Source: Collybia mongolica | Lineage: Eukaryota; Basidiomycota; Agaricomycetes; Agaricales; Clitocybaceae | Length of the DNA stretch: 64,000 nt | Assembly (NCBI GenBank): GCA_013420905.1 | Contig: JAAXNY010000001.1 | Coordinates: forward strand, 2,046,001-2,110,000 | Direction: 5' to 3' | Part shown: positions 34,148 through 62,856 of the stretch, in pieces | How positions within the stretch are numbered: the stretch's first letter is position 1 | Layout of the letters: the number at the start of each line of letters is the position of its first letter | Program-made: the position numbers and the translations under genes | The notes under the pieces: generated by a model | What the model saw: the letters and a program-made list of their open reading frames with translations, nothing else | The model's database searches: none | What the model was told of the DNA's origin: nothing

Positions 34148-34696
34148 TGTTGGGATACAAGCCTGACACAATCAGCCATAGATTTATTATTAGTACAAGA
34201 CATGGCATGTACAAGTATATAAGCACTAAGGGTGCATATGAGACAAATAATTGATAGCTCTCTCTTATCATCATTGCACATTCTCCCTCTCTCCAATCCC
34301 TATAGGTTATGGGCCCTGGACCTGTAACTTATTGAAGAAGTACTGCACATCAAAGCTTATACTTGATTCTCCTCCACTTAACTCTCCCTTCTTGACAACA
34401 CTATCAGCCCCTATATATTACCTCCCATTCACCAACATGTCCAACACCCAGCCTGCACCAAATACTGAACAATCAGGTGATGGCAAACATCCTAGCTTAT
34501 TCATGCAAGTCAATATGAAATTAGCAATGTCAATTTTGAAGCTAAGCAAACCTCTCAATGCCAAAAACTGGATCACTTGGTGCAAGTACATGAAGCATGT
34601 CTTACAGATGTGCAAAGTCAAAGGGTATGTGAATGGGAATATTATTGAACCTGATGAAGGACCAAGTGCTGAGAATTGGACTTACAATGACAATTA
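34148..34696 (+). mobile_element. Copia-type retrotransposon relic, left part (LTR-like plus gag start)
   Basis: A sequence starting TGTTGGGATACAAGCC looks like the left edge of a copia LTR. A gag-like frame begins near 34438 (MSNTQPAPN) and contains the copia gag pattern KLSKPLNAKNWITWCKYMK and NWTYNDN. It is cut at 34696 by the Plavaka element; the continuation is at 45949. No pol is present. The LTR end is not defined. Confidence 0.6.
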
Positions 34697-34711
34697 CATC
34701 AGCAAATCCTG
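34697..34711 (+). repeat. Left terminal inverted repeat of the Plavaka element
   Basis: CATCAGCAAATCCTG, one mismatch to the right end. The preceding TA at 34695-34696 is the target duplication. Confidence 0.85.
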
Positions 34712-35109
34712 GGTCCCCTGTGGAGATCTGCTAGCAGCCCTGCATAGATACCCATAGACACCCATAGTGCCATAGATGCCATAGAGTAGGTTCTGTTGCT
34801 GTACAATTCTGTGCAGACCTCCACAGCTCTCAGCAGTCATAGTTCAATTTATGCCCTCCTGTAAAGTGCTACAAGGTTCTGAATAGCTCCACTTATTACT
34901 GGGCAGAGCATAGGAGATTACACCTATTACTGTGCAGAGCATAAGAGAATACAGTTCTAGTCTGCAGATACACCCCTTGCTTTTGAGATTTGTACAGCCT
35001 GGAAGAATAGGGCAAACAGTATTCCATTACATTGCCATATTTTTGGTGTGGTGGGCCATTGTCTACGAATTTAATGGGTAACAAGGATTCTAGTAGCTAA
35101 GTCCAACAA

Positions 35110-37843
35110 TCAATCAAGAACATTACAAAAACCGAGGTCAATCTTGTTAGAATCTTTCCCTGATTGTACCCTAAATACCATATCAGCACCACTAAATGAT
35201 TGATCAAAAACTACATACCCTCCTGCCCAAGCGATGTCCTCCAATAACTGAGTAATTCGGGAACTATGATAGGTATGGTTATCGAGCTCATGGATCAGGT
35301 CAAGCATTGAAGTCTGTACTGGTCCAAACACCTTGCCTTCGAAGCTGATGGAAATGTGTATTCCTGTCACATACTCGCGGAGGCAGTTAACAAGCTGCAA
35401 GGTGTTTTTAGGGTTAGTGAGGCAAGGCTGAGGCTCAAATACTAAACATACACAAGCACATGCCATGGCTAAACATGGGCGCGGGAGCTCCGAGCAGAAA
35501 TGATTTGGAAATAAAATACCCAGACTATCTTTATTTCCGTAATAAAATTGTTGACATAGGTCTGCAAGGACGGCATGTCCAAAGTTCTTTGTCTTTCCCT
35601 GGTATAGAGGAAGGTTAATATATATTTTCAAACCCGAAGAAAATATCCGATACATTTTTATCAAGACCACCTCGCAAAAATGACCCATGGTGCAGCAAGG
35701 CCTCGACATCACTAACAATTTTTGCAAGGCGCACTGATTTGTTTTTGAAGGTCTTCTTGTCTAGACGGGGCCGTAGAACATCTTGGAAGTGGGCGAGCAA
35801 AATCTCGCGGCCCATAGTTTTCATTTTACCACGGTAGGATGCACCATCCTCAAATATCTTGAAATCGCACGAGATTAGAAATACAAGGGGGAGATGTTAA
35901 TATGACATACAAGAATTGACAAAGCATGTTTATCAAAGTAATCTAACGAAAAGCATGATTCAGCATGAAGTGGTGTGAAATTCAAATACTCACAGTCATC
36001 GAGAGGCTCAGAGTCAGGATCACTCTCATGAATCAAGATACCTTGCATAATACTTTTTAATGCAATACCCAAGGTGGCTGCTGCACGTTCAGGGAAACTG
36101 TTCTTGCTGGTATAGAGATGTAGGCGGTGGTGATTCTTCGCGAACTCAATAAGGTTCATCCACACAGGACTGTCGCTGTAGAAACCCAACTGTGTACGTG
36201 TTGGGGATTTGTCAGTAATATTTTGAGAATTCCGTGGCATGCGGGTCTTCGAGGGGGGCAGTATGGGATCATCCCCATCATCAGCATCCTCGTCACTGGC
36301 ATCCTCATTGTTGACATCCTCATCATCAACGTCCTCATTGTTGGCACCCTTAGTGCCATGTGAATGATTGCGGCGGTGCCTTGAAGGGTTGGTGATAGGG
36401 TTTCGGTGGCTGTTAGGATGATCAAGATCAATGGGATCTGGGGCACGGATTTTTCGGTTCGTTGCATGGTGCAAAGCCAGCACAGAGTATGCGTCAGGCG
36501 ATTGGGGTGCATCAGCTATAGAAGTATAATACTGCTGTGAAATTGATGCAACCGACTAAACTTTATGCTTACCTGGGATGGAATGCCGGTGAAGTTCCCG
36601 AGCATAATGTTCATCCTCTTCGCCTGGTGATTCTTCATCAATATCCATATTTTCTATGTTAAAGTTGATGTCAGAAATGTAGTTGTCAACAAGAAACTCA
36701 CGGTTTTCATTGTATGCATCATTTGCGTTCGGATCTTGTTGCATTTCTATCATGTCATCTGGGTCATGTTTATCAACCAAATCAAGGAGATTAACTATTG
36801 TATCACCTTGGCCTTCATCAAAAGGGTTCTCTCTGTCCCCCCCACTGTCGCTGCGAACTGAGCCTTTGGAACCTCCATCCTCCTCCCCACTACAGCTGTC
36901 ACTCTTGTCTTTTTGACTCTGTTCCGAATCACTGTGGGAGCTTTGATGCTCTTCTTCAGAGTCTGGAATAACCTCAGAAAGTGCACGGTCTGGTTGAGGT
37001 GTCAGTATACAGTCCAGAATTTGGGCTTTTGTTGATAGAAGAGTTGGGCAATGTTTTTCACCTGCGGCAACCCTAGACGTGGCTTGCTTGAGTTTCTTTT
37101 GTTCTACTTGGCTTTGATGGTCCGCGTGCAAGTTGGAATTTGGGCAGTAGCACAGGTCTTCGATGTACTATTGAGGCTGGCACGTGAGTGGCTGGAATGG
37201 GTATGTGAGATCCCAGGGCTTTTGAATGTGATGTACGTGTACCACGTGGACCAGCTCGGAACCCGAAGCGAGTGTCTGTGTTGTCAATGTGGTTTTGGGC
37301 AATAGGCTGTGGAGCACCTGATCCAAGGGGAGGGTCTTCCTTACGCAAGGGGATAATCGTGGGCTATTGATGTCAGTTGTGATTGAGATGAAAAGCCAAG
37401 TACTCACAATGCTTTCCATGCCTTTTCTAACCCTGGTTTTCACTACTGGCGGAGCCATTATGTTCGGAGTTACTTCTTTAGGCATATTATTTCCCAATTT
37501 TGTTGTGATTGGTTTCTTCTTGCGTGTTTGAGTTATCTGTTCGCCCACCTTTAGAAGTTGGGCGACTACTCCTCCTTTGCCGCGGTTAGCCCGTTTTGGT
37601 CGTTTGTCACTGTGGCCTGGATGGGAATGTCTCATAATGCAAAAGGTAATAAATAAAACAAAGCTTACCCTCGTGACCTTGGGATGGTCATATCAACTGA
37701 GTTTCTAAAGATTAACTTGATAACGTGAATATGACAGGAGTATGTGAATGCTCACCTTCAATGTCTGCTGTCCTCTGTGACTTGTTCACCGGTTGCTGAC
37801 ACTCATCCTCATCCTCCGATAGTATATGTTTGCCTTGCACCAT
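35110..37843 (-). CDS. DUF6532-like protein, passenger of the Plavaka element
   Basis: A - strand exon chain. It starts near 37843 (MVQGKHILSEDEDE) or upstream, passes through a 9-nt micro-exon (37677-37669) and a basic region (SDKRPKRANRGKGG), then a long acidic, Ser-rich segment (36900-36600) and a tract rich in NED repeats (about 36340-36280). The C-terminal conserved region has LGFYSDSPVWMNLIEFAKN, REILLAHFQDVLRPRL and LCQQFYYGNKDSLGILFP, ending at 35110. Overall it resembles the Agaricomycete DUF6532 family of unknown function. Some junctions (near 37130 and 35690) do not close cleanly in my reading, so the gene may be damaged. It is not the element's transposase and its role is unknown. 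Confidence 0.55.
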
Positions 37844-37973
37844 GAGTGGGAGAGTTACAGAAGGATGGTCAATGAGACGATGTTTTGAGTGTTGTGCATA
37901 GGCTCCAGGTGAGTAGGACGTGGCAGTGTGACTGGTGAATTTGGTTCAGTATGCAATCACATGTCAAATAATA

Positions 37974-38535
37974 TTATACAACCCTAAATGCACGAAGTTG
38001 CAGCCACTCCGCCCCCAGAGCTGTCACGACATATTTGGACACCACCAGATCTGCACGCGACGTTGTTACTTCCGCCTGGGAGGACTCGACCATTTTTGCT
38101 TGGGCCACTCCCAGTCCTTCTTTAGTGGTCTCCAACTCTGTCCGCATGGTGAGTCAAACAAATTGCAAGTCGAAACAGGTAGATTAAGACGAACATATAC
38201 ACCTTTTGTTATACTCCAATGACTCTTCCATACAGGTTGACCTTGTGCACATGTGTCAGTATCTATAGTGACATAGAGCTTGTGGAGGTGTTATTACTTC
38301 TTCACGTAAACTGATGAGGTAGTCATATCTGACATGATATTAGACACGAACTGTCCCGATTCGAGGTTTAAATTATTTGACGAACATGAGCAAAGTCAAC
38401 GAGGCAACTTTGAAATATATCAGTGTCAGAAAGGTCATACGAGCCAACCTACTCACCTACGAAATAGTTGGTATTGTTCGCGTCCCACATCAATTCACGA
38501 AGGTTGAAGCCTCCATCGGGTTCCATGAATTCGGT
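37974..38535 (-). pseudogene. Unidentified gene fragments inside the Plavaka element
   Basis: Two protein-like pieces on the - strand. One at about 38531-38459 reads MEPDGGFNLRELMWDANN and ends at a good donor (GTGAGTAGG). The other is a 57-codon frame at 38147-37974 with a coiled-coil-like start (MRTELETTKEGLGVAQAK). I do not recognise either family. Their base composition is like the gene-rich half. Confidence 0.35.
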
Positions 38536-39125
38536 TAATTACAAGATACGGTGTTGACGGTTGCTTTGATTGGCTTGAAGAGTGGTTTTACTGGAAGAGC
38601 CGTTGTGTATTGCTAGCCCAATGGACAGAAAGCCAAGTGTGACACGGTCGAATACAACAGTTCTACACACAAGCTTCACCAAGCACCGGTTTCAGCGGAC
38701 TCCAAGCCGTCAACGGGCCAAGGCCAACAAGTGCGACGAGAGATCAGAGAGCACCAGAGTCGTCAAGCTCAGTAAAAAAAAATAGTCACAAATTTCGACA
38801 TTAGTCAAAAAAAAAAAATATATAAATTTCGGCTAACTTTGAGCTGATTTTTTAACACAACTTTTCCCCGGCTATGTCGAAATTTCGGACTAGGAACCGT
38901 CTAACACAATTTTTTTTCACTGAGCGTCACGGCCGTCCGACTCATCTCAAGGAACTGACTGATTCTGTACATGATTATCGGCTTGACCGGGCTGGCAGTT
39001 GATTACGTGATATGGAACTGTACAGTTCCACAGCCACCCTACACAGCCACCCCTTCGTCCAACAATCAGAGATGGTAGCTTATGTAAAGTAGCCTTCAGG
39101 CAAGTTCTCCTCCTCCCTCTAAGCC

Positions 39126-39971
39126 ATGGCCACGACAACAAAATCGACCATTGTGTTACCGCAGCACCAAGGACTAAAAACGAAATTATGATCAGCCAAA
39201 ACTTCGCCCAAGGAGAGCAAGGCTAGGGCAGCGAAAAAGGCCGCGCTGCAGGGGGCCCATGCTCATGCCTCCAGGAAGACGAGGACATCCATATCATTCC
39301 ACCGACTGAACACCTTGAGGCTTGCGCGTGCACTGAAGTACCCCCGCAAGTCAATTCCTCACGCACCCCGGATGGATCAGTTTAGGACAATTGTTTCGTG
39401 AGTCTATTCCTGCTATCGACTGGAGAGAGAGAAAAGAATGCGTTAGGTTAGAAGGGGCTGGGAAGTTTAAGGCTGTCAGAAGGTGTCTAATTGAACGTGT
39501 ACGGAGGGATGAGACCGTTGACTGGACCATGGGAGGGCCGTTTCGGTCGAGCACAGCTTCCCAGTCTTGCTTCACCCACTTGTACGCTTGCGACCCGAGA
39601 CTAACAGAGTAACCCCGTACCCAGGCCTTTGAACACCGAATCAGCCATGATGAATATTGAAGAGCACAACACTCTTGTCTTTATCGTCGACCTCTGATCA
39701 AACAAACGCCAGATCAAGGATGCCGTGAAGAAGTTGTACGATGTTCAGGCTGCTAAAATTAACACACCCATTCGGTATGTTCCTTTTCCGCGCGTCCCAC
39801 AAAGGTTTGTCTAACAATGAGGTGAAGACCTGATGGCAAGAAGAAGGCATACGTGCGATTGACGCCTGACCACGACGCTCTGGACGTCGCTAACAAGGTT
39901 TGCATACACTCTCCCCTTTAGTTTATTATCGGACTAAAAAAAATCTTCGTTCTCAGATCGGCTTCATCTAA
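39126..39971 (+). pseudogene. Ribosomal protein uL23 (RPL25/L23a) pseudogene with introns
   Basis: Exons 39196-39397, 39625-39774, 39828-39897 and 39957-39971 splice in phase and give the uL23 C-terminal body: [77 protein letters not shown] and IGFI-stop. One in-frame TGA (about 39695-39697) follows VDL, where intact uL23 has a sense codon. The first exon with the ATG (possibly 39126) is not resolved. Introns are kept, so this is a DNA-level copy, not a reverse-transcribed one. uL23 is a large-subunit protein at the tunnel exit; this copy could at most give a truncated product. Confidence 0.85.
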
Positions 39972-40628
39972 ACGTCTCGTTTGTATGTGGGGAGAGGGAC
40001 ACGCCACCACACTATCTACGCTGCTGTCCGAACTATACATATGATTAATGTGAAACATCATGCCGCGCCCCCGTCCTCGGGCTATGAAATCGCCATTGAG
40101 AAACCAAAGTATTTGAACTATGTAACTGAACAGCTGTCATCAGTGACATTCTACTAGATGGGTCCTTTTTGTGAGTATTGTGAACATTTGTTCGTCCGAG
40201 TTGCCCCTAAAGGGAGCTTCATGAGAACATCAATTCCAAGGTTTCAGTCCAATACACGTCGCCATATATAACGTACGTGTCTCATACAAGGTAAATAGAT
40301 CCCCGACAGGACAAGAAACGTCGAGAGAAAAGCTTAACAATAATGTACAACTGAAATACTGGTTATCGGCGATGTGTGCTGTTTCATACAAGCTAATTTT
40401 ATTTCAGATCGTGAGACTGATTTACACGGGTATATAACTGGCTTTTGCGTTGACTGTGTCATTGCTGTCGTTTGTTCCGTTTACTTGACTCAGTGCTGCA
40501 TCTGCCTTCTTCAGGTCCCCTTCGCTGAGACTTCTGAACGCGCCACCACCAGGTGTGCTGGCCCCGCTTATGACGGATTCAGAGCGTGAGCGCACTTTCA
40601 TGACGAGACATGAGAAGGGTGTTTGGAT
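39972..40628. other. Captured or internal DNA, nothing recognised
   Basis: About 0.65 kb after the uL23 copy. Composition is like host gene DNA, but no protein motif or exon chain could be supported. Confidence 0.35.
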
Positions 40629-41850
40629 TCACGTCCCGGGCAGGCCAGCGCGGATGTCCAGGGGCGCTGGATTGTGAAGATTGGTGGACAAGTGAACCAT
40701 GAAAATATCTTCTTGTATGACGCTGTTCAAAGACTTGCACAAGACCTGATATGGTGACCGTGCCTCATTATCCTTATCTGCCTTTGTGATGGAAGGGGAA
40801 ATGACGTACTCCGTGAATTTGTTCACCAAGCAACTTTGCGCGGTCGATTTGTTTCACGTCAGTTGTAGCCGCGACCAAAGCCTCTGTCAGGTTCTGGACA
40901 GTGAGTTTCCGGACTCCCGATCCAACACCTAAAGCTTCAACACGATCTGCCCAGAAGAGTTGATCCCCAAAAAAGGGCCGTATAATAGTAGGAATCCCAG
41001 CTATGCACGTTTTAACTTAAGTAAAGAGGCGATAAATTCTAAACTTCACCTCTCAAACTGGCCCCAGTGGTTCCTGCCCCTCCATGATGGCAAGCAGCGC
41101 ATCAAGCCGCTCAAAGTATTCACTGATTTCGAGGACAAACTGCTCCGATCTTTCTTCACCTTGTGGGAGACCGTCGTCCGGGCTATCGGTTTGAGAAAGG
41201 GTGAGCAATGAGATAGATGATGCAGCCAAGGAGAGCAGACGGGTAATGTCCTGTACGCATTGTTCATGAGCGGACTTGTACACAAGTTCATGCGACTCAT
41301 TGAAATAGAGCATCATTTTCACTGGACGCTTATGCTGGCCTCTTCCTTCTGTTTGATCAGACCCGCTTAATGCAGACTTTGCGTCGATAGTAGCGATAAG
41401 CTTTTGAGCCGATGTCTTTACTGACATTTACATTAGACCGTGGTACCAGACAAAGACAGCCGATACAACCTACCCACTGTTCCGCTATTGTCCAAAGTGT
41501 CTTCAACGAAAGGCTTAGTATCCAGCTCATCTAACGCTGTCTCGTAGAAGGTCAAGAGAGTTTATAAAGAATCATCAAGGGCATTCACCTCCACCACTTC
41601 ATGGTATATTTCATTTTGTGCTGTTTCGCTAAAATTGCTGTGCCAAGTTGAGGCAAGTTTGTTGTACGTCTCGCAGATCATGACTTTTGAAACTTCAGCG
41701 TTGACATGTCGAATAGCTGCTTGAAGAAGTGAAGGTATTGATACTCGAGCTGGTCTTTCAAAAATCTCACCAAGGCCAAGAGAATCAAAAATCGTTTCTG
41801 CAGGATTGATATTGCAAAAGCTCTTTTTATGGGACTCTTGGTAGGACTTT
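40629..41850 (-). pseudogene. Fragment of an Agaricomycete NTPase-like protein
   Basis: Collinear - strand pieces in different frames: GEIFERPARVSIPSLLQAAI and HSNFSETAQNEIYHEVVEV (about 41790-41600), VKMMLYFNESHELV (about 41330-41290), then SPYQVLCKSLNSVIQ and DIFMVHLSTN (about 40760-40690). The pattern hhLYFDEAHxL followed by hhFLSTNS is one I associate with large Agaricomycete-specific NTPase-like proteins; here the acidic motif reads YFNESHEL. In-frame stops separate the pieces, so it is a relic. Family naming is tentative. Confidence 0.45.
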
Positions 41851-42077
41851 GGGTTCTCCTCGATGATTCCCCAGACTCGTCTCGCAGAGGTTCAGAGTCA
41901 GGGACAATGTCCATTGGATTGTCAGAGAGAAGTAGTAGTGGTTGTGGTACGCATTGCATTGACTGTCGCAATCTTTGATGTGCAAGGATAGGAAAAGGCA
42001 CCGCTGACTTTGGTTATAAAAGCACATGAGCTTTGAAGGGGGAGTAACAGCAAGAGTACCTTTGTGACGCATGGAAC

Positions 42078-42437
42078 TCAGTGCGGTGACAACCCAGACA
42101 ACTGATCTTCAACCAAACTGGTGCAATGTTTGCGCTGCTGGCACTGTTGGACTTTTCGTATGAGGAAGAGTAGAGAAGAGGTGGAATACACTGCAGCAGA
42201 TTTGATGAGCATCGACACAATCATCATGTACTGCGTTCTGTGGGCACTGCCCAGCATGGACATGATGTGATGGCGGTAGTAGAGGAGTCGCAAAACAATG
42301 GCGATGGTGGAGATGATGTTGAGTGCGAGAGAGATACAGAAGTATGGGAGAATGAAGTTGACACTGGTCATTGCCCAGATAGATGACAGGGTTTGCGGCG
42401 CAGTTAACAGGATTGTTGGGTGGTAGGATGTTCCCAC
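42078..42437 (-). pseudogene. Fragment of a 7-TM Agaricomycete membrane protein
   Basis: The frame includes VNFILPYFCISLALNIISTI, a basic loop (RLLYYRHHIMSMLG) and MIVSMLIKSAAVYSTSSLLF, matching the C-terminal helices of the Agaricomycete 7-TM family, to which the gene at 6011-7402 also appears related. Upstream helices are missing, and it abuts the transposase start. It is a captured piece, not a working gene. Confidence 0.6.
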
Positions 42438-42451
42438 GACCTCACTTCATC

Positions 42452-45400
42452 ATGCCTTCATGTTTACAGTGCGGCCGGAAGTTCATTGACAGAAGGGCAG
42501 TCCTTTCGCATGTGAACCAACCTTCTGGATCTTGCCAAAACCATTTCAATATAGTTTCCAACATTGCAGAAGAACTTGAACACTATCGTCGTCAGCAAGA
42601 ACATTCTAATACCAAAATCCCAACTGATGCACCTGCATTTGAGGATCTGGATCAACAATGGTCACAACAAGGTGGACCAATGGATGTGGATGAAAATGAA
42701 GACTCAGCTTCAGGTTCTGAGGATGAAGATGAGGAGTTTGTTGAGAGATTCAGTGGAGCAGCTGCAAAACAGGATGGTGGAACCACATTTATGGACAACT
42801 TTGATAGTGATGATCATGCATCAAAACGCACAGAAAATGTCTACTATCCATTTGCATCCAGAGACGAGTGGGAATTAGCATCATACCTCCTTCGTTCAAA
42901 CCTGAGTGTAGCATCTATAAACAAATTCCTTTCTCTTTCTCTTGTATGTTCTATCATCCTTCACTCATGCCAGGTTTCTGATATGTAATACCTTAGATTA
43001 AACAACTAGGCCTATCATTTCACTCTGCCAAGCAGCTTCGTGGACGAGCCGAAATGCTCCCAACAGGTCCAGAGTGGCTATGCAAGCCATGGACAACAAA
43101 CATACCAACAAAAGCTGATCTTAAACTCTTCTACCGAGACCCACTAGAATGTATACAGTCACTTCTCCATAACCCACTACTTAAGGACCACTTACACTTT
43201 ACCCCAATGCGTATTTATAAAACAGCAGCAAGGGCAATGCGTGTCTACACAGAGTGGATGACAGGCAATGTTGCATGGAGAATGCAGGTATGACCTCTCA
43301 CTTCTATTATCATACCCATCTAACCTCTTGATAGGAACAACTGCCAGTCGGGGGAACCCTTCTTGGAACTGTTCTTTCTTCAGACAAAACTAACATCTCT
43401 GCAATGACTGGTGGACAGATGGCTCACCCACTCCTTTTAAGCCTTGCTAATATTGATATGGGATTTCGTATGAAAGCTTCAAACCATGCCTTTCTCCTTC
43501 TTGCCCTCCTCCCAGTACCAAAATTTATCCACTCAGATAGCAAAATCCATGGGGTACTGGAATCTCGGCTTATTCATGAATGTCTTGACTTTATTCTACA
43601 GCCACTGAAAAAAGCTGCTGAGCTTGGCATAATGATGTCAGACCCACTTGGAAACCTTCGATATACATTTCCTGTGCTGGCTGCATACATCGTTGACACT
43701 CCTGAATCAGCTGTTTTGTCTGGGGTAGCTGGTAAAACCTCATCTGTCACAATGGCAACCTTCAAGCAATTTGGTGATCCATTTCAACATGAGCCACGTA
43801 CTGCATCAACTACTCTTGCACAGTTACATGCTCTTGAGGAGACTACTGATCCTTGGGATCTTGTTGCATACAAAACTCTTGCATTGGAAAAGTTTCGCTT
43901 AAATGGTGTTCACCGACCATTCTGGAGAGATTGGCCAATGGCAGAACCTTATCAATTTCTCACCCCTGAACCTCTCCACCACTGGCACAAGATGTTCTGG
44001 GATCATGATGCAAAGTGGTGCATTCATGCAGTTGGCCATGCCGAAATTGATTTTCGGTTCTCTGTCCTTCATCCCCACACAGGATATCGACATTTCAGAG
44101 GGGGAATATCCAAACTCAAGCAGGTCACAGGTCATGAACATCGTGACATTCAACGATTTATTGTAGCTCTTATTGATGGAGCTGTTCCAAAGAACTTTCT
44201 CATTGCAATTCGTGCTCTCATGGACTTCCGTTATCTGGCACAAACACCTGAAATCAGTGAAGATACATGTCAGCAAATCCAATCAGCCTTAAAAGAGTTT
44301 CATGATAACAAGGAAGCTATTGTTCAAGCTGGGGCTCGCACAGGGAAGAAGAAAGTTGCTAAAGCTTGGTCCATTCCAAAGCTTGAATTCCTGCAAAGTG
44401 TTGTCCCAAACATTTGCAACAATGGTGTTGCCATCCAGTGGTCTGCAGATATCACAGAGCGTGCTCATATTACTGAAATGAAAAACCCATCAGCCTCAAG
44501 CAACAATCAGAATCTTGAATCACAAATCTGCCGCTACCTGGACCGTGAAGATAAATGCCGTCGGTTTGATCTTGCCACTGCTGTTCGTGAGGCTCGGCTT
44601 GATTTCCATGACCTGCCTGACCACTCATTGGACATTAACAATGATGATGATGAAGAGAATGAACAACTTGAGACAGTCAATACAACAGCCTCTCTCTTAT
44701 CAAACATAGATCCAACTCATCCATTGGCTGGTGCTACTCGTATCAATGCTGATTATTTCCAGTTAGCTGCTGATCTTGAAAATATGCCCTCATCTGAGAC
44801 CCCCTACCTCCAACGAACCTTCTTGGCTGCTAACACAGCCCTCCATCTCGCACGTGATCCAAGTTTCAAACGCATGAGTGTCAATGAAACAGCCAATATG
44901 TTCCATCTCCCAGATCTCCACTGTGCTCTTATTGACTATCTAAATCTTGGAAACAATTACAATCCTGTGGTTGGTACCCACCGCATAGCAACAACTGGAT
45001 CTCCAATGCCAATCAATGTCAAGGCTCTTGAGGTTTGGACCAAAGTTCGGCTCCAAAACTATACATATCATCAGCCACATGATGCACTCCCAGCACAAAC
45101 TGTCAATGCTTCACCACCTTCTTCTGCATGGCCAGTGGGACATGCTGATACAGTCTTGATCAATATTGATCAGGACAAGGTCTGGCCAGATAGTGGCTTA
45201 GAAGGTATGTAGTTGGCTAATTATTATGTTCAAAATGCTTACTATATATTATCTATCCTAGGTCACTGTCCTGTACAACTTCGACTTATCTTCCGTGTTG
45301 TCAGTGGTAATCATACTGAGACTTTGGCAGGAACAGACCACTTCCTTGCCTATGTTCAACGCTTTAATGTTATTTCTCAAATCAACCAAGGGATGTCAGA

Positions 45401-45647
45401 ATCAGCAGGGCCATATCCAGATCCAACAACAGGAATGTTTATCTTAAAACGTGCACAAAGAAGGGACAACACAATGATGGGTGACATCATCCATTTGTCT
45501 CAATTGCGAACCCCTGTGGACCTAATCCCACGGTTTGGTAAAAAGGCTGACCCAAGATTGACAAAAGAAACAACCCTTGAATACAGCACAGACTTTTTAT
45601 TGAACAAGTATTTTGATAAGGAAACATTTTATGCCCTTGATCAGTAG
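42452..45647 (+). CDS. Plavaka transposase
   Basis: Four exons close in phase: 42452-42943, 42997-43287, 43335-45204 and 45262-45647, giving 1012 residues with no stop. The N-terminus has a zinc-finger-like CLQCGRKFIDRRAVLSHV...C motif, then an acidic linker. The large middle domain has Plavaka family blocks such as GVHRPFWRDWPMAEPYQFL, HAEIDFRFSVLHPHTGYRHF and IQWSADITERAHI. The frame at 42383 has extra codons upstream, but the Met at 42452 directly precedes the zinc finger. It should cut and paste the element using the inverted repeats at 34697 and 45946. Intact coding suggests recent activity. Confidence 0.85.
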
Positions 45648-45931
45648 AAAATGACCAATCCTAGTAGTATTTTGCATACATATAATCATGTTGAATTATG
45701 AAGTCATTTGAATAAGTTCTACCCAATTCTGCACAGCCAATCAAATCAAGCATACCCCTGGGCAGATGAGGTGGTAAATATACAGAACTGTATAGAAGGT
45801 ATGAGCCACTATGGATATCAGGACAGACATGGTGGATTCTACACATAACTGCAAAGCACTGCAGAGTTCAGTACAACATCTATGGATGACTATGGGCACT
45901 ACAGGGTCTGTCAGCTGATTGTGAGAAAAAT

Positions 45932-45946
45932 CAGGGTTTGCTGATG
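45932..45946 (-). repeat. Right terminal inverted repeat of the Plavaka element
   Basis: On the - strand CATCAGCAAACCCTG, followed on the + strand by TA (45947-45948), the second copy of the target duplication. Confidence 0.85.
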
Positions 45947-45948
45947 TA

Positions 45949-46424
45949 TGCCCAAGTTCTCATCACCACAAACATATCCACATCTGAAATGATGCATGTC
46001 TCAAGGTGCAAGGTGCAACACCTTGAAAGCCATGTGGGATGGTCTCAAACAGGTACATGATTCCAAAGGACATCAGACCATCATTTCTATCATACACAGC
46101 CTCTTTCAAACATAAGCCAATGATAATACAAATATCAGCAAATACCTCCAGAAGTTAAAGGGGTACTGGGAGTGCATTAACCTCTTGGACAACAATGACT
46201 TCAAAATATGAGATCCCCTCTTCAAGGTCATCATCTTACCATCACTCCCACTCTCCTGGGACATGTTCACTGAGTCATATGTTGGAGGCAGAAAAGGGGT
46301 TACTGAGCTTGATCCTAAGAAGCTCATGAGCTCTCAGTAGTTCATAGGCATCCTCATAGAGGAATACCATCAACACAAGACCAGACCTTCTGTCAGCAAT
46401 GCAACAACAACAGTCACTGCAGAA
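45949..46424 (+). mobile_element. Copia gag relic, right part
   Basis: Continues the gag frame cut at 34696: AQVLITTNISTSEMMHVSRC, then, after a frameshift, MWDGLKQVHDSKGHQTIIS, YLQKLKGYWECINLLDNNDF and VIILPSLPLSWDMFTESYVG. Several in-frame stops are present. No protease, integrase or RT follows, so the element lost its pol before or after the Plavaka insertion. Confidence 0.7.
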
Positions 46425-46768
46425 TGTTAAAGAGTAGAAAGAGAGAGAGAGAGCACAAGAGATAGAGAGCTGAGAAGACCTGTCTGTATTGCAGAGAATA
46501 GATGAGATCAAGACTACAGAACAATTAGCTAGAGGTGCAGTATATATACAACTACCCAAGGGGGACCAGAGTAGAATAAATATGGAGAGAGGTAAACCAA
46601 ACATAACCAGAGTAATATACAGCATCAATCAAACAATGAAATGGAATGATGGGAGTGATGGGGGAATTGTAACTACTGGGGATAGATGGATTAACAGCTG
46701 ATCATACTAGATAAAAGATAAGATAAGATCAAAAGATGGAGATAAGATTGAAATGTAATTTCATAACA
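46425..46768. repeat. LTR-like segment
   Basis: 344 bp bounded by TGTTA at the left and TAACA at the right, with GA-rich and GATAAGAT motifs inside. No matching target duplication was found at the edges, so it may be one LTR of a larger deleted element, or chance. Confidence 0.3.
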
Positions 46769-46796
46769 CTATGGTGTTGCCTATATTGTTTGTGAA

Positions 46797-47105
46797 ATGA
46801 ACAGATCAGTTTGGCAACATGAAGTGGGAGCATTTAGGGTTATTCCTTATTTTGCTAGGAGCACAATTAAGCTGCCAGAGAACCTGCAAGATCTAATAGA
46901 CATCTCTAGTGAAACATTGAATGCCTTGATGGAATCTAAAGATCCTGCTAATAGACAGGTTTACAAGGAGTGTGACTATACCTTTGATAAGATTCAGTTG
47001 GATCAGTCTGAGACTGAGTCAAGTAGTAGTAATGAAGATGAGACAGGGATAGCTCCAGCACTACCATGGACTACTAAGTCACACAAAGAATTGCCTCACA
47101 AGTGA
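46797..47105 (+). pseudogene. Unidentified coding remnant
   Basis: A 102-codon frame with a Ser/acidic stretch (LDQSETESSSSNEDETG). No recognisable family. It lies directly after the LTR-like segment in CpG-free DNA and is probably part of an old transposon. Confidence 0.25.
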
Positions 47106-47220
47106 GATAAGAAATAAGTCTTCATAACCTTTGAATTTGACTTGGAAGGAAATGACAGTATGGGCTATGAAGATAAACAGTAATGACAGTGTGTAAGCAA
47201 GTAATGACAGTAATGTAGAG

Positions 47221-47465
47221 AGCTTTACACTCCCCCACCTATCCTGCTGGAGTCCAGTGGAATCTAAGGGAGTCTAGTGGACTCCAGAGGGAGTGCAGAG
47301 GGACTTTTGCATAACATAAACCCAGTCTAGTAGGCATAAAGTCCATGTGGAGTCCACTGGAGTCTAGTGAACTCCATGTCTAGTTACACCTATTCTCTGG
47401 AGTCCAGAGGGAGTCCAGATAATATTTTTTACTAGAGTCTACTGAACTCCAGAAGGACTTGACTA
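47221..47465. repeat. Clustered GGAGTCCA/TGGACTCC motifs
   Basis: At least eight variants of the near-palindrome GAGTCCAGTGGACTCCA in both orientations within 245 bp, which could form multiple hairpins. Related GACTCC-type motifs recur at 54920-55010. Confidence 0.6.
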
Positions 47466-47869
47466 GACTGGATCTACAGTACAATAAGCAAGCTAAAAAA
47501 AAGTGACTACAGTATTAATTGAACTAAGACCTTATAGGTAAGTCATTAAATTATCTATTAGCCAACTGGACTATGGAAAGATTGTAGAAAATAATGCAGT
47601 GTGTCCTTTATAGAAATGTGATTATGTGCATGGACCATTCTGGCAAGTGCTAATATTCAATCATGCCACTTTTTTTTTTGCCATCCTTACTTTCTTTTCC
47701 CCCCACTCCCAATCCCTTCATTACAGGGATGTGCCAAGGTAAGCACAAACTGGCTAGAAGCAAAGGTGAGTATGGCCCCCAATTGCAGACAGCCAGGTGC
47801 TAACAATGATGAGGGCCAACACCATGTCAGCCCACCAGCACCATGTCACAATGCCTAGCACCCAACCAC

Positions 47870-48200
47870 CAACCAGGTCACCAGTAGAGTACAGCCACCC
47901 ACACCAACTACAGCCACCTATGCCAACATCATTGCTTGGCCCCCACAACCCACTATGGCCACCAACACCAATGCCAGTGCTTGGCCCCCACAACCTACCA
48001 TGGCCACCAATGCCAACTACAGCCACCAATACCAATGCCAGTGCTTGGCCCCCACAACCCACTATGGCCACCAACACCAACTGTGACCACCAATGCCAAC
48101 TACAGCCACCAATGCCAATGCCAGCACTTGGCCCCCATGACCCACTATGGCCCCCATGTCCTATTACAACCACCAATGCCAACTACACCAACACCAGCAC
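47870..48200 (+). repeat. Minisatellite
   Basis: Imperfect units of about 40-60 bp built from CCACCAACACCAATGCCA, TGCTTGGCCCCCACAACC and CACTATGG. All reading frames give low-complexity Pro/His/Thr strings, so the open frames here on both strands are not genes. Confidence 0.8.
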
Positions 48201-48313
48201 TGTGCACCTGGTGGAGGTGGTTTTTCCACCACTTAATGGATGAAAAGGGTTTTTCCTAAGTTCAGTGGATGAAATTAAGGGGTATGAAAATAGGATGAAA
48301 TTTCATCCTACAT

Positions 48314-48992
48314 ACTTGAGGTAGAGGGCCATTACTGGCAGATATGAGTCCTTATGTTTTTTTTTGATTAACTTTTCTTTATATTTCTAGAACCAGGTTG
48401 TTGCAATAGAACTAGCTATCCAGAATCTCTTCAACTTTATATTACTTTTTGTTGTTGATAAGTTTGGTTCTGGAACACTTGTCAGGCATTGTCCTAGAAT
48501 TAGATTGTAGGGTACAGGGAGTAGCTTGACATCATGGAAGGCCTGATGGATACACAACATAAAGATATAATATAACCACACATTTGAGCTTACCAAATAC
48601 TTATTACACTTCTATAAGGGGTCATGTTACCAAGAGGCTCAGACAGGGAGCAGTATACACAGTATGAATAACCATGCAGGGAAGGGATGAGCATAGAGCA
48701 CTAGAGGCTTGACTATGAGTAGAGAACACAGCCCATATATCTTTATGTTGTGTATCCATCAGGCCTTCCATGATGTCAAGCTACTCCCTGTACCCTACAA
48801 TCTAATTCTAGGACAATGCCTGACAAGTGTTCCAGAACCAACTTATCAACAACAAAAAGTAATATAAAGTTGAAGAGATTCTGGATAGCTAGTTCTATTG
48901 CAACAACCTGGTTCTAGAAATATAAAGAAAAGTTAATCAAAAAAAAAAACATAAGGACTTGTATCTGCCAGTAATGGCCCTCTACCTCAAGT
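48314..48992. mobile_element. Fold-back (long inverted repeat) element
   Basis: The left arm (48314-48571) and right arm (48735-48992) are inverted copies of each other with few differences, starting ACTTGAGGTAGAGGGCC and ending in its complement. The loop is about 160 bp. No coding capacity. It looks like a non-autonomous fold-back or MITE-like element. Confidence 0.8.
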
Positions 48993-51660
48993 CTATTGCA
49001 AAGGTGCCCTTCCATGGAGAGGAAGGGACACCTTATATACAGTACATTGTACCTATGTCTCAAATAACAACAGAATCTGATATCAGTAACTCTACTGATG
49101 CAACAATACATCTGTGATATGTTAGTCCAGAGTAAACTACTATCTGTCAAGGGGTTAAAGCAGTGTGTGTCAGAATAATAGGTATAACAGTGAGGCTATG
49201 CAAGCTGTGCAATAGTGATTCTGATGACTAGATGTGGACAAACAAATGATCCCCTTACAACTTCACCCATATCCATGGTGTATGATATAAGAAACTGCAT
49301 ATGAATTGCCAATAGAAGTTGGTGTTTATAGATCCTATACAAATATCCACCAATAAAAGGTAACAATATATATCTAGGCATTTTCCTTAAAAACAAGTCA
49401 GCTGGTAAAGTGGGAACTCAGACTCTCAGAGATGGACTGTGTGAAAAGATTAACAAACTTGAAAATGTAGATCCATATTTGTATATTCCAAATATACAAC
49501 CAACTCAGTAGCTTCTCTGGAGACTTTATACTGAGCCACATGAGCCACACAGACCACACAGACAAATGCAGATGTCTGCAGACTGAGCTCAGACCCTGTT
49601 TGGCAGGAAGCCCTGCTTAATTGGCAGTCTGCATCTGAGCCAAGTCAACCAGCTTGGAACAACTCCTCATGAAGTCCATGCAGACTGTCCAGATTGCTTA
49701 CTTAATTATAGTTACCATTGCTTATTTAATGCACAAAAATGCAATAATTTGGAGAGTCAAATACAAGGCCTCAAGGTTACATGTCATGTGCATAAAGTAT
49801 GCAGATTAACCTTTTGGTAATATGAGCTTGTCAGTCCAAGGTGCTTGTTTTTATAATGACCCCTGCTGCCTACTCTTGGCCATTACTGGCAATGGCTGAA
49901 TATTGTTGATAGGTACTACACATCACCTGTCAGCCTTGTTGTCAACCTCCACCACTACATTCCCAGCTGCCCCACCCATCACCTCCCTGCCATATGATTG
50001 TGCACAATACTGCCAAGTACAATGCCAGGTCCCACTGCCATGGATACCACCACCTGAGCAGCTAGCATGGTGGACATGGGTGGTGCAGTGGTGTATTCCA
50101 TATGGTAGAACCATCACCTGGTGGCTGGGTGTGCACCCCTGGATGTGCTGTCTAGACCAAGTAGTGCCAACCACCCCAGTGCCCAAACCAGATGTGTGTC
50201 AGGTGAGTACATATGTGCCCCACATCTAGTTGCTCAGATATTCTATTGTATATACACCTATATGCTGCTGTTTACCTTGAGACTACCTTGGTGTAATTCT
50301 ATCTACCTTGTGATATGTTCTTATTCCTTTTACTAATATTAGTTTACTTCTTACTGATACTTTACCCCTGTACTATTTACACCCACAGTATTTATCCAAT
50401 GTACCTATTTATAGATTGGACTACCCAATTGTGAAACTTAAACCAATTGTTTAAATTTTAAGACAATTAATAAATAAAGAATATACCAAATAGTTAAATT
50501 ACTAAGTAAGTAATATTGATCCAAATGCCTACTTGGGTGGAGTGGGCCAACACACTGTGTGGCAGGTACTCATTCTTTATTTCTTTTCTTAGGAGAAATA
50601 AGTCCATTCCACATTCAGGAAATTGTAAATGAGTAGAAACAATGTAGATGATAGTTTACAGAGGTCATGTGACCGTGGGAAAATGTTACCAAGTAAACAA
50701 GCAATGCCTGTGCACAAAACCCAATGCCATAGCTTGCCTGGTTATGGAGAAAACACAAAAACCATCAGAACTAACTTTTCCCAGGATCATGGACACTAAA
50801 AAAGCATTCAGATTGTTGTCATGTATTTGGTATACTTATGTGGTGGAATAGACCATGTGACATGTGTCAATAAATAGAGAAATCAATCTTATTTGTATTT
50901 CAGGCAAATATAGTAGTAGTTGTTGATTATTCCAATGTTTAGTGTAATTTCCCACAAGGGTCATGTTTGGTAAGGGTCATTGTTGTTATAAGATGTTTGT
51001 TCACCCCTGACATAACACACAGACCTTCAAAACTAGCTGAATCTGGACATTTCTAATATTTTGCTCAAAATGGACTGTGGGAAAAATATGCTCAACAAGG
51101 AAATTGTAGAGCCATGTTTGTACATTCCAAATATATAAAAACAAAGTTAATAGTTTTACTGCTTATGGAGAAACACACAAAATAAATTTTCAAACGCAAT
51201 GCTTTGAAATATTAGATATGCATAATTTTGATGGCATCATCAAAGCATTATGTAAGCATCCCAAATACATGCAAATTATGTCACAATACTTTGTATTTGT
51301 GGAGAGATGCTGTAAAAAGCCATAAGAGAAGAAAAAACCCATTATGGAAATATTTTCCCATGGTGTTGAAATATGAATGGTTGAATGAATCAACTTTTTG
51401 CCCAAAACCTGGGTTGATAAAGAACTTGTATTAATAGAAATAAGTTCCCACAGTATTGAAATGTATATTGACCATTCAACATTTAACAATTTATTTCTAG
51501 CCTTACATCCTAATCAAGAACTTATCAGATATGCTTAAAATAGAAATATCATCATCAAAGACAAACTTCAAATCAATATACATATGCCTGTTAAGTGTTT
51601 TTTGTTGTATTATCACATACTATATTTGACCATACTCATATAGCTAGCCATTGTCAAGAT
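48993..51660. other. CpG-poor repeat-like DNA, no gene
   Basis: About 2.7 kb of AT-rich DNA. It contains scattered similar blocks, for example the GGACTGTG...AAATATA segments near 49430-49500 and 51070-51140, and CACAGAC/CTGCAGAC-rich DNA near 49540-49680. No protein or RNA gene is supported. Confidence 0.45.
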
Positions 51661-52127
51661 ATTAAGTATTATAGATTCCAGGAGCATTCACATTGACTTG
51701 TTTGGCTATGCTTATGGCCAAGTAATATATAAATGTGATATTAAAACAGATATAACAAGAGATTATAATCAAATTTGGAAAGGTACAAACAAATATAAAT
51801 ACACATTTCCTGGTGTACCCCCTCCATAGGTCTAGGAGTAGTAGCAATTTCAATTGTCTCTGTTAGCCTTGTATTTGCTGAGATACATATGCATCATCTA
51901 CATTGTGGGAACTTCATTAATATTGTTTGTTTGGCTAGATGTTGGCAAAGTGATATACAGATCATATTCATTTGTAATATGCAGTCAGAAATTTGTTGTT
52001 AATAATGTGATTTGGGAGGGTACAAGCAACTACAAATACATATAAACATACACATAATGTAATCCTTTACAATGTCTAGTAGTAGCATGTCCATCAGCTT
52101 TGTATTTGCTGAGATATACATCATCTA

Positions 52128-53755
52128 CAGTAGGTCAAAAAACTGTCCCAATATTTGGTCATTTTATAATGATTTACTTATAACAGAGTACTGGAGATTA
52201 ATATCATTCTGAGAAATATATATATGATACTACACTATATTAGCTTTGAAATGAGCCCCTACTTTCCTTATTTGAATTAAAAACTCATTTCATAACAAAT
52301 TGAACAAAATAATTACTCATTGGGACAGCTTTTTGATCTACATCTCCAAAGTCTCTATTTACACAATTAATACTTGGTATGACCACCTTTTGCCTTAATA
52401 ACTGCTTGAACCCTTCTAGGCATGCTTTCTATAAGTGTCTGGCATGTTTCTGGTGGAATTCCATTCCATTCCACTACCACCCTATCCCGCAACTTATGTA
52501 CTCCTTTGGGGGCTGTTGGGTACTTCTTAAGTGCCTTCTTCAACATTACCCAGAGATGTTCAATGGGGTTGATGTCAGGGGATTATGCTGGCCAGACTAT
52601 AACATCAATGTTGTTGTCTTCAAACCACTTGGTTGCCTTGTTGGATGCATGTTTGGGGTCATTGTCCTGCTGAAACATCCTCTCTCCCTCTGGCATCTCC
52701 AGCTTTTCAAAGCTTTCCACTACTCCCCCATCCAAAATCTGGCAGTATTGGTCTGCATTCATAATCCCCTGGACCTCTGTAAGCACTCCTACTCCATTCC
52801 ACCCCATACAACCCCACACCATAAGATTATTTCCTCCTCCATGTTTGACAGTAGGAGTGGTGGTTCTGTCAGAAAGTGGTTCTCCCTTCTTCTTCCAAGT
52901 ATAAGTCCTTCCATCTGACCCAATCCTGTTGATTTTAACCTCATCTAACCATAAGATCCTTTTCCAATCCTCCACTGTCCAGTTTTCATGGTATCTTGCC
53001 CATTGAAGATGTTGCAGTTGATGAGCCTTTTTGAGAAGAGGACGTTTTCTCTTGACAACACTACAAAAGTCATTCTTTTTGAGTGCATTCCTGACTGTTT
53101 GGGGTGTGACAGGGTTGGGAAGAGTTTGGTTGATGAAATGGGTGGCCTCTACAGCATTATCAAGCCTTCCAGTGGTGATTTGTCGAATAATTGACCATTT
53201 GTCACCAGGAGAGAGCTTAGAAGGACGTCCCCCCCTGTGGTTTTCCTTGTCCATATCCAGTTCCTTCTTGATTCTCCCAATGGTAGACTTTCCCAGAGTG
53301 GTTTTGGACTGGATCTGACACAAGGTATAGCCTTCTTGAAGAAGGGAGATCACAGAAAGGTGTTGGGTAGAAGATGTAGGTCTCATGGGATGATGGGGGA
53401 AGGAAAGAATGATTGTAATGATGGAAACATGTTGAATTTATATCAACATGGTCACATGACTTTGTTTATTGTTCCCACAATACATCACATGATGTTAAAG
53501 CTTGCTGCAGTAAAGATCTTGCCAAAATTAAGCATAGGTCAAAAAACTGTCCCAATGAGTAATTATTTTGTTCAATTTGTTATGAAATGAGTTTTTATTC
53601 AAATAAGGAAGGTAAGGGCTCATTTCAAAGCTAATATGGTGTAGTATCATATATATTTTTCTCAGAATGATATTAATGATATTAATCCCCAGTACTCTGT
53701 TATAAGTAAATCATTATAAAATGACCAAACATTGGGACAGTTTTTTGAGCTACTG
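52128..53755 (-). mobile_element. Tc1/mariner transposon with long inverted repeats
   Basis: 1628 bp flanked by TA (52126-52127 and 53756-53757). Inverted repeats of about 214 bp (52128-52341) and 221 bp (53535-53755). Each repeat has the motif AGGTCAAAAAACTGTCCCAAT at its outer end and an inverted copy at its inner end. The transposase lies between them on the - strand. Confidence 0.88.
52367..53386 (-). pseudogene. Tc1-type DD34E transposase with one internal stop
   Basis: An intronless 340-codon frame from ATG 53386 to TAA 52369-52367, interrupted only by TAA at 52585-52583. It has an N-terminal helix-turn-helix pair (GYTLCQIQSKT, then GGRPSKLSPGDKWSIIRQ) and the DDE triad in WLDEVKI, QQDNDPKHAS and NPIEHLW, with 34 residues between the second Asp and the Glu. 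The stop follows WPA, just before SPDINPIEHLW, where the family has Gln (CAA to TAA). The truncated product lacks the catalytic Glu. Confidence 0.88.
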
Positions 53756-54283
53756 TATATTGTGGGAAATTTCTTTAGTATTATTGTTTGTTTGGTCAGA
53801 TGTGTGGTGAAATGATATACAGACAGTATTCATTTACAATATGTAGCAAGAAAATTGTTGTTGATGAGGTTTAGAAAAATAAAAACAAATACAAACACCT
53901 ACAGACATATACATGAGGTACTACTTCACCATATCTAACACTAGCAATTTAAATTACATCCATAGGCCTTGTTGTTGTTGAGATATGCAATGATTTATAT
54001 TGTGGGAACTTTGATGGTATTGTTTGTTTGGCTAGCTGTGGCAAAGTCATACACAAACTTGATATTCATTTGTGACATGCTTGTAGTGAGAGAGCTGCTT
54101 TTGACCATGATGTTTGAAGGTGTACAAACAAATACAAATACATATAAATATCTACATTGGGTAGCCCCTCACCATATCTAATAGTAGCAATTTAAATTGC
54201 ATCCATAGGTCTTGTCATTCTTGAGATATGCAATGTTTTGTATTGTGGGAAAAGTTTGACCCAAAGTGGAACAAGCCTCTTGT

Positions 54284-54351
54284 AATCGTGCTTACGTTTG
54301 TCAACTACGCTGTTAGAGCTAACAGCGTAGTTGACAAACGTAAGCATGATT
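54284..54351. repeat. Near-perfect hairpin with 33-bp arms
   Basis: The left arm (54284-54316) and right arm (54319-54351) are complementary at 32 of 33 positions around a 2-base centre (AG). The arms contain several CpG in otherwise CpG-poor DNA. No gene lies next to it. Confidence 0.85.
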
Positions 54352-55320
54352 ATGCAGTGGACAGTTATTAATTAATTCTTGAGATATCCCAAGAAAAAGA
54401 CCAATTAACTCGAATTTATATTATTAAATGCAGCCCATGTTAGCAGTTGCCTTTTTTGCTCGAAATCCGCGCGTCGGCTAATTTGGATTCCCACAGTTAG
54501 AAAAATATTTCCACGACTACAAAGTCTTACTGATGTACTTCAAAATGTTTACTGATCATGTTCTAATGAAATCTCGGAACACTTCAAACTTACTAACCGT
54601 GGGAAAAACAACACTGGATCTTGTTGGGTACACTGAATTTTCCCCACAAACCCAGGATGATGAATGAGTTACTTATGTAAACATAAGAACTTGTAAAAGG
54701 AACCAGGACTCAGTATGTCAATCTACCCACTTAAATTCAAAGCACATTAACACTAACCCATTTTACAGATGACTTCATTGATGATGAGGTCAATGAGGAC
54801 AATGGGCAGTCTGGCAGTGCACCAAGACTGTCAACTTCTGCCAACAGCCCTCTCAATGATGATGATGAATTTGATAAATTTATTCATGGGATAATGCTGT
54901 ACTTTACACTGAGCCACATGTCCTTGTGGACTCCGCACAGACTGCACGCACATGTCTGCAAGGACTCTGCACAGGCTCGCGCGGACTCCACATGGACTCC
55001 ACAGAGTCCATGCAGACTCACTTACTTTCTTTTGCTATTAGTGTACTTACTATCTTTCTTATAACATGATAACAATACTATATATTGATAATAAATACAA
55101 CATTATAGTAATCTAATATGGGCAGGGGCCCCGCCACCCCCGCCATCCCCATTGCCCTTGTCACCATTGTTTTCTGCTCCAGGTTGTGTGGGATGGGCCC
55201 CTGTGGCATTGTCAGTGGCCTGGGTAGCAGTGGTGGCAGCACTGGCATGGGTAGCAGTGGTGGTGGCAGTGGCACAGGCATGATCTAGTGCTGGCCATTT
55301 TTCTTGCTGTTGTCCCCATT
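54352..55320. other. Mixed repeat DNA with a short acidic coding remnant
   Basis: No complete gene. At 54769-54900 a short + strand stretch reads DDFIDDEVNEDNGQSG, an acidic segment that could be a transposase tail. GACTCC-rich motifs follow at 54920-55010, then GGTGGCAGTGG-type low complexity at 55200-55290. Confidence 0.3.
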
Positions 55321-55560
55321 GTTCTTAGTTGTTGTCTTTGTTGTTCTTAGTTGTTGTCTTCATTGTTCTTAGTTGTTGTCTTCATCATCCTTGTGGTGGT
55401 GGTGGTCATCTTTGTCCCCATTCTAGTTGTCGTCCTTCGTCATTGTTGTTGTGCCATTGTTGGTATGGCTGCTGCTGCTGTTGCCATTGTGGCCGCAGGC
55501 CTTGTTGTCATGGTTGCTGCTGCTGCCTTTGTTGTTGTTGTTGTTGTTGTTGTCTTCCAG
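55320..55560 (+). repeat. Short tandem repeats
   Basis: Three copies of a 22-bp unit built on TTCTTAGTTGTTGTCTT (about 55322-55385), then TTG/GCTGCTG trinucleotide runs to 55556. The Val/Leu/Cys-rich open frames here are translation of repeats. Confidence 0.7.
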
Positions 55561-58500: not shown

Positions 58501-58563
58501 AAACCACTGAGCACTATGACCCCAGAATACCCGGTTGGTAATTTGAGCATGCATTTCCACCTA

Positions 58564-58575
58564 AAAAGGGGGATA
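58564..58575 (+). other. Polypurine tract of the chromovirus relic
   Basis: AAAAAGGGGGATAA lies directly before the TG of the 3' LTR at 58577, the expected place for plus-strand priming. Confidence 0.6.
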
Positions 58576-58576
58576 A

Positions 58577-61847: not shown

Positions 61848-61864
61848 TTACCCCTGTTCTATGA

Positions 61865-62837: not shown

Positions 62838-62856
62838 CGTTTGTTCGAAAGTTTGT

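Follow-up and report, generated by a model that had tools for sequence, protein, structure and literature searches.

The uptake of DNA from several host loci by one DNA transposon is established for the Pack-MULE and Pack-CACTA elements of plants (PMC8903248), and the capture of single genes is known for fungal hAT and Tc1/Mariner elements (PMC3538342, PMC6710886). Among Plavaka elements, one of the dominant groups of DNA transposons in Marasmius oreades (PMC8290104), capture of TET/JBP genes has been described for PlavakaB (Kojima, 2025; PMC12730594). The mechanism by which cut-and-paste transposons capture genes is still disputed. A stretch of 64,000 nucleotides from Collybia mongolica (contig JAAXNY010000001.1, positions 2,046,001 to 2,110,000; 'the window', to whose numbering plain coordinates refer) was found to contain a complete PlavakaB element in which a patchwork of pieces from ten host loci lies between the element's own two genes. 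The ends of the element were placed as follows.

34697-45946, plus strand: complete PlavakaB element, 11,250 bp long, with a 2-bp duplication on either side (TA/TA); the homology of the four copies starts and stops here.
34697-34711, plus strand: left terminal inverted repeat (TIR), CATCAGCAAATCCTG, from alignment of copies with their flanks.
45932-45946, minus strand: right TIR, CATCAGCAAACCCTG as read on the minus strand, from the same alignment.

The right end is a near-perfect inverse of the left end CATCAGCAAATCCTG. The genome searched comprised 46 Mb in 26 contigs (one genome and one assembly; loci outside the window are given as contig:position). Four full-length copies, ~99.5 % alike from end to end, were identified on four contigs by alignment of flanks. 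As the whole element with its cargo stands at four sites that differ in their flanks and in the 2-bp target duplication (TA, TC, GA and AG), the objections foreseen in a preliminary description of the window, namely a plain host locus or an assembly chimera, fail. The element is mobilised as one unit, including its cargo. Substitutions among the four copies amounted to 0.2-0.7 % per segment, and 62 of the 90 private substitutions were C>T or G>A at CpG, with CpG accounting for 694 of 5,075 C+G positions. The likeness of the copies suggests recent movement only, present-day autonomy being beyond that claim. The termini CATCA..TGATG were present in all six copies checked and a 2-bp target duplication in seven of the eight inspected, the exception being C9:2977209, which we read as a putative deletion derivative. 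Relatives on C2 and C8 showed a TG duplication; element ends and a 2-bp target duplication were seen in a 22.5-kb relative.

Helitrons possess neither TIRs nor target duplications and encode a Rep/helicase; membership of that group was rejected, as TIRs, a target duplication and a Plavaka transposase are all present. Absence of target duplications is also described for the Helitrons of Pleurotus (PMC4289320). The element belongs to Plavaka, and within it to the PlavakaB subgroup, by its PF18759 domain, its ends and its duplication length; the ends and the duplication fit the published description of PlavakaB, with CATCA..TGATG ends and duplications of 2 or 3 bp (Kojima, 2025; PMC12730594). The same article lists C(2)C and H(3-4)H motifs, placed between the catalytic residues, among the features of the group.

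A DNA search of the genome with 37974-42437, where the preliminary description had placed a patchwork of host genes within a Plavaka element, scored 40 of 61 candidates and gave 54 matches. Four of these were full-length at 99-100 %, and the rest were partial, each matching one segment, on different contigs, and falling into end-to-end pieces. A control host block of similar length (9500-13900, 4,401 bp) matched only itself, and the contrast with the 54 tiled matches excludes a chance origin of the patchwork. Two backbone controls did not fall apart into donor pieces: the first had seven matches, of which six were known Plavaka copies and the seventh was C12:771457 at 70 %, and the second had eight, all at loci also matched by the left-end search. 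The host-derived cargo spans 37991-42421 (4,431 bases), so that the coordinates first given were nearly exact, and 4,414 bases were assigned by tiling to ten loci on seven contigs; the residue consists of 15 bp at 38730-38744 and the single bases 40679 and 41769. All three pieces originally named, uL23 (plus), a seven-transmembrane (7-TM) gene (minus) and an NTPase-like gene (minus), were recovered, and the count of 'at least three' host genes was extended by seven to ten donor loci. The captured pieces, which now span 29 bp to 2.5 kb, are listed in order.

37991-38146, minus strand: capture 1, part of a gene for a coiled-coil protein (donor C18:219464), 85-87 % alike; 372 bp of the piece stand in the C8 element.
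38147-40604, plus strand: capture 2, uL23 locus with introns (donor C1:3474790-3477403), 91.5-93.5 % by BLAST.
40605-40678, minus strand: capture 3, 74 bp from C1:2892657-2892730, 90.5 %.
40680-40789, minus strand: capture 4, first half, multi-copy NTPase-like gene (donor C9:93187 or the C16 cluster), 96-97 %; contiguous in the donor with 41274.
40790-41099, minus strand: capture 5, piece of a UDP-glycosyltransferase gene with an intron (donor C6:1309153-1309462), within capture 4, 97.7 %; donor PF00201 at E=1e-3, below the cut-off.
41100-41273, minus strand: capture 6, Med11 piece (donor C6:3913256-3913429), within capture 4, 98.9 %; PF10280 at E=8e-4 with the hand-spliced donor, below the cut-off.
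41274-41768, minus strand: capture 4, second half, NTPase-like gene, 96.2 %.
41770-41928, minus strand: capture 7a, Rad9/Crb2-like piece (donor C9:2097950-2098109), 93.8 %; donor with PF18115 and PF08605.
41929-42076, minus strand: capture 7b, second Rad9/Crb2-like piece of the same gene, 1.25 kb apart in the donor, 94.0 %.
42077-42105, plus strand: capture 8, remnant of a GH7 cellobiohydrolase gene (donor C10:898217), 90.5 % over 264 bp in the C2 element; donor PF00840 at E=1.7e-113.
42106-42161, plus strand: capture 9, first part, carboxylesterase-family gene (donor C4:3809427-3809601), 91 % over 57 bp; donor PF00135 at E=5.5e-4, below the cut-off.
42162-42387, minus strand: capture 10, 7-TM gene (donor C16:115100-115325), within capture 9, 90.3 %; longer in the C2 element.
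42388-42421, plus strand: capture 9, second part, where the carboxylesterase gene resumes; local score 52, where 500 base shuffles reached at most 34; the score is 84 for the C2 element.

The labels GH7, cytochrome P450, acyl-CoA oxidase, Crb2-type Tudor domain and two of three thiamine pyrophosphate (TPP)-enzyme domains (P450, oxidase and TPP enzyme belonging to a second element described below) were above the Pfam cut-offs, those of glycosyltransferase, Med11 and carboxylesterase were below them, and '7-TM' and 'NTPase-like' were given from the appearance of the sequence. The 7-TM donor has a stop-to-stop frame of 402 codons, with which a Pfam search found no match; the NTPase-like family had none above the Pfam cut-off and one irrelevant weak match, and these genes may be akin to Crinkler/RHS-type NTPases, a candidate name. 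Six copies of the NTPase-like piece are clustered within ~133 kb at C16:1083542-1216577. The 29-bp GH7 piece and the short esterase piece lean on the C2 relative, where they extend over 264 and 178 bp, respectively. The uL23 locus on C1 was the best of eight PF00276 matches in the genome, six of the others being Plavaka copies or relatives and one a distant gene. The uL23 piece also includes a dispersed repeat (38768-38930) that has 16 further matches at 74-83 % in the search with 37974-42437 and is present at the donor locus too. Six donors code on the minus strand and three on the plus strand, one being without assignment, and an orientation bias of captures was rejected on these counts. The cargo is most likely dead weight, because it consists of fragments only and the uL23 copy in the window carries an in-frame stop.

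The pieces moved from host to transposon, and they moved as DNA. This follows from polarised CpG decay, open frames at the donors and retained introns. Introns, as inferred from the reading frames, were kept in the uL23 and glycosyltransferase pieces, which indicates capture at the DNA level, and long open frames were present at the donor loci examined, the 74-bp piece excepted. Over ten aligned pieces, the element showed 63 C>T losses at CpG and the donors 14 (the sum omits an additional row in which the first half of the NTPase piece was compared with the C16 donor; the GH7, esterase and 74-bp pieces are outside the alignment). The CpG observed/expected ratio was 0.83 in the cargo, compared with 0.93 in the host half of the window, 0.53 and 0.32 in the left and right parts of Plavaka and 0.19 in the transposable element (TE)-rich section 46000-64000; the cargo is therefore CpG-rich in the manner of the gene-rich half, as had been noted beforehand. 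The captured pieces appear since to have decayed in the manner of methylated transposon DNA. The earlier proposal that intron retention means DNA-level capture thus gains the support of parent loci, found elsewhere in the genome by alignment, of the kept introns and CpG decay, and of the same cargo in four mobilised copies, with subsets of it in the C2 and C8 relatives.

The possibility that the joins are exon borders or spliced products was rejected for the joins that could be placed, all of which lie within exons or introns; one end of the Med11 piece is at most 1 base from an exon end. RNA-mediated (cDNA) capture might be read into the two Rad9-like pieces, joined over 1.25 kb possibly by splicing, yet most of that gap falls in one long open frame, and for the intron-bearing pieces (uL23, glycosyltransferase and, in part, the TPP piece of the second element) it is refuted. 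As four copies at different places agree, assembly error fares no better, and together these two explanations retain a negligible probability.

The cargo is a nested record of separate capture episodes. A block of 484 bp comprising the glycosyltransferase and Med11 pieces separates two NTPase bases that are otherwise neighbours, without loss of any NTPase base, and the 7-TM piece is nested in the esterase piece. Similarity to the donors was graded, from Med11 (98.9 %), glycosyltransferase (97.7 %) and NTPase (96.4 %) through uL23 (~95 % without gaps) and Rad9-like (94-95 %) to 7-TM (90.3 %). The C2 relative, whose backbone is 95.7-97.3 % like that of the window element, holds coiled-coil, uL23, Rad9-like, GH7, esterase and 7-TM pieces, but it had no match to 40258-41913 or to the glycosyltransferase and Med11 donors, and its comparison with the NTPase donor locus gave only a 21-bp match outside the captured piece. 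It is this grading, together with the division between pieces matched in C2 (uL23, Rad9-like, GH7, esterase and 7-TM) and those unmatched there (Med11, glycosyltransferase and NTPase), that points to separate episodes. Loss by deletion came after capture, because the extents of the pieces differ among relatives. The NTPase piece may have entered after the split from the C2 element, but a 15-bp Rad9 remnant retained in C2 allows later loss. The 7-TM piece of the C2 relative is itself interrupted by a 10.8-kb long terminal repeat retrotransposon (C2:136558-147367; 475-bp repeats 97 % alike, 5-bp duplication). The C8 relative (C8:808693) has both ends, the TG duplication and the coiled-coil and uL23 pieces, with no match to the transposase gene except at the right end, and fits the Pack-TYPE definition.

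Uptake of a scrambled host pseudogene locus as a whole is conceivable in that NTPase-like genes occur in several copies, with a cluster on C16, so that scrambled host loci may exist. Among the 54 matches (40 of 61 candidates scored) no locus outside Plavaka elements combines pieces of two donors, subsets and extents differ between the window element and those of C2 and C8, and the captures differ in age, all of which makes this origin very improbable. No better placed is the hybrid-element model given for Arabidopsis Pack-CACTA (PMC13317346, a review; PMC8903248), in which aberrant excision unites two elements that lie near each other and the DNA between them is carried along. Plavaka and EnSpm/CACTA transposases are related (PMC12730594) and the larger uL23 piece could be explained in this way; against it, neither Plavaka ends nor backbone sequence turned up between the pieces, later pieces are nested in earlier captures and the donors are spread over seven contigs, and we consider it very unlikely here.

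Another cargo was found in a second Plavaka element, with its right end at C5:1472882, which is 92 % alike over window positions 42422-43400, the start of the transposase gene. Before its transposase lie pieces of P450 and acyl-CoA oxidase genes of C11 and of a TPP enzyme gene of C10, the last of which, as read, partly keeps its putative introns. Backbone homology between the two elements begins at 42422, where the cargo of the window element ends, and the last ~117 bp ahead of the transposase homology of the second element are without an assigned donor match.

Microhomology at the junctions, which the preliminary description had suggested looking for, did not exceed chance. Eleven joins between different donors were read by eye on aligned donors; six share 0 bp and five share at most 1 bp, the average expected of random joins being 0.67 bases. 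This count excludes the join between the P450 and acyl-CoA oxidase pieces, where 14 bases are unassigned, and that between the 7-TM and esterase pieces, where ~5 bases are uncertain, as well as the backbone joins and within-donor joins or deletion scars. Microhomology as a guide to joining was accordingly rejected for these 11 joins. A repair copy that jumps among loci and writes filler (template switching during gap repair, by synthesis-dependent strand annealing or fork stalling) would account for pieces that are colinear copies of donor loci still present and for insertion into a captured piece without loss, and single-copy Pack-TIRs of animals have been explained in print by gap filling (PMC8277862). 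In those elements, however, microhomology was reported at one or both breakpoints in 190 cases (67.6 %), with a median of 2 bp, and donors showed a cis bias (PMC8277862), whereas chance-level joins and donors on seven contigs were found here; template switching is thus a serious possibility, although an unlikely one. End-joining appears roughly twice as likely, because there is neither an excess of microhomology nor a bias towards nearby donors.

On balance we favour, with moderate confidence, stepwise building of the cargo of a mobile PlavakaB element by capture, the breaks being sealed by end-joining of genomic fragments. A double-strand break would arise within the element, from aborted transposase action or replication trouble, the transposase being a possible maker of breaks; end-joining would seal it, trapping stray or copied genomic fragments. 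Further breaks in captured DNA would trap more and so yield nested pieces, trimming deletions would come afterwards, and a version with working ends could then spread by cut-and-paste. A more speculative extension, which we regard as doubtful, is that Plavaka lineages maintain a slot for captured DNA within the transposase promoter region, where breaks linked to a CACTA/RAG-related transposase would be sealed by blunt joining of genomic DNA acquired in trans to leave a nested, datable log, and where a CpG-rich, gene-like insert may supply promoter sequence or shield the transposase from methylation-based silencing.

Several points weigh against the stepwise account. The absence of the NTPase piece from the C2 element may be due to loss, and similarity is a rough clock, since the alleles that were captured may not be those in the assembly. 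Any of several NTPase-like copies, on C9 or C16, could be the donor, and the coiled-coil donor is just 85-87 % alike. The joins 37990/37991, 42105/42106 and 42387/42388 are later deletion scars rather than capture joins; 11 joins are few, five of them possibly share one base, and end-joining and low-homology template switching leave similar scars. The C9:2977209 copy is without cargo and had no match to the donors compared, no element was found with the slot intact and empty, and what was located of the second element is limited to its right end and transposase side, its left end not being found. The generality of capture is further limited by a family of short Plavaka-ended elements, sampled once (C8:91789), which gave no match to the donors compared. 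A shortened copy at C11:2019373 likewise had no match to the compared donors within 4 kb. The short family measures ~1.36-1.38 kb, with about a dozen members like C8:91789-93169 and a middle part of ~690 bp.

The two genes of the window element are divergently transcribed, with the cargo between them stopping 30 bp short of the transposase start codon.

35113-37635, minus strand: left Plavaka gene(s), with DUF6532 (PF20149, E=4e-15) in the frame 35113-35727; genome matches only at Plavaka loci.
42452-45209, plus strand: Plavaka transposase gene in three exon frames, with PF18759 (E=2e-60; 2.1e-60) and PF20722 (E=1e-50).

Exon frames 1 and 2 of the transposase were open in all four copies, and frame 3 has 625 codons and ends at a stop (45210) common to all four. 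As GTATGT directly precedes it, this stop is taken to be intronic, and the gene probably continues past a predicted intron at 45204. PF18759 and PF20722 were both present in the 120 listed of 1345 transposase homologues, and the nearest named one among the matches listed was from Collybia nuda (79 %). At the insertion site, an open frame (34251-34757), which we take to be of the retrotransposon gag type, appears to be broken at 34696. Elsewhere in the window, a near-perfect foldback of ~680 bp (48314-48992) has arms of ~256 bp, 96-100 % complementary, and a loop of ~166 bp, and a 100-bp part of its arms also occurs near the NTPase donor (L025 7511-7605). The TE-rich half also contains a frame that is presumably a Tc1/mariner-like transposase (52583-53386) and what we assume to be Gypsy-like polymerase/integrase frames (56131-58212).

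With the parents of nearly all the cargo in the same genome, relatives in other states and joins placed to the base, end-joining and template switching become directly testable against each other. Plavaka is able to rearrange parts of housekeeping genes, uL23 and a Mediator subunit among them, and such pieces will mislead the annotation of genes and may give rise to chimeric ones. The initial suggestion that capture by Plavaka elements was undescribed holds in part: TET/JBP capture by PlavakaB is in print (PMC12730594), whilst a patchwork of fragments was not found described in the Plavaka articles consulted from the open-access literature searched (PMC12730594, PMC8290104 and PMC9674265). Transduplication as such is already known; what was not found in that literature is a Plavaka element with its own transposase gene and cargo from ten donors that is nested and can be ordered.

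The elements described by Kojima (PMC12730594) are close in kind, with the same superfamily, subgroup, ends and duplications and a captured gene between the ends. Their single TET/JBP dioxygenase gene is kept as a gene and is thought to aid escape from methylation-based silencing, whereas the cargo of the window element is fragmentary, comes from ten loci and has no use that is evident. Transduplication of histone H3 by fungal hAT elements (PMC3538342, PMC6710886) likewise concerns a DNA transposon of fungi that bears a copy of a host gene, but one gene in another superfamily rather than a patchwork. Maize Helitrons (PMC3288121) also acquire several fragments in successive steps; they are rolling-circle elements, in contrast to an element with TIRs and a target duplication. 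Animal Pack-TIRs (PMC8277862) hold host DNA within TIR elements and become multi-copy after transposition, as here, but neither their breakpoint microhomology nor the cis bias of the single-copy ones is seen in the window element. Plant Pack-TYPE elements (PMC8903248) share with it the coding DNA of several loci between transposon ends, and they are defined as non-autonomous and without transposase, a strict sense that does not apply to an element with a transposase gene aboard. Tgm-Express1 of soybean (PMC1947982), a CACTA element with five unrelated host gene fragments, is likewise CACTA-related and carries several fragments with introns; compared with this plant element, the window element has a transposase gene, pieces of ten loci and nested captures whose order can be read by comparison with its relatives.

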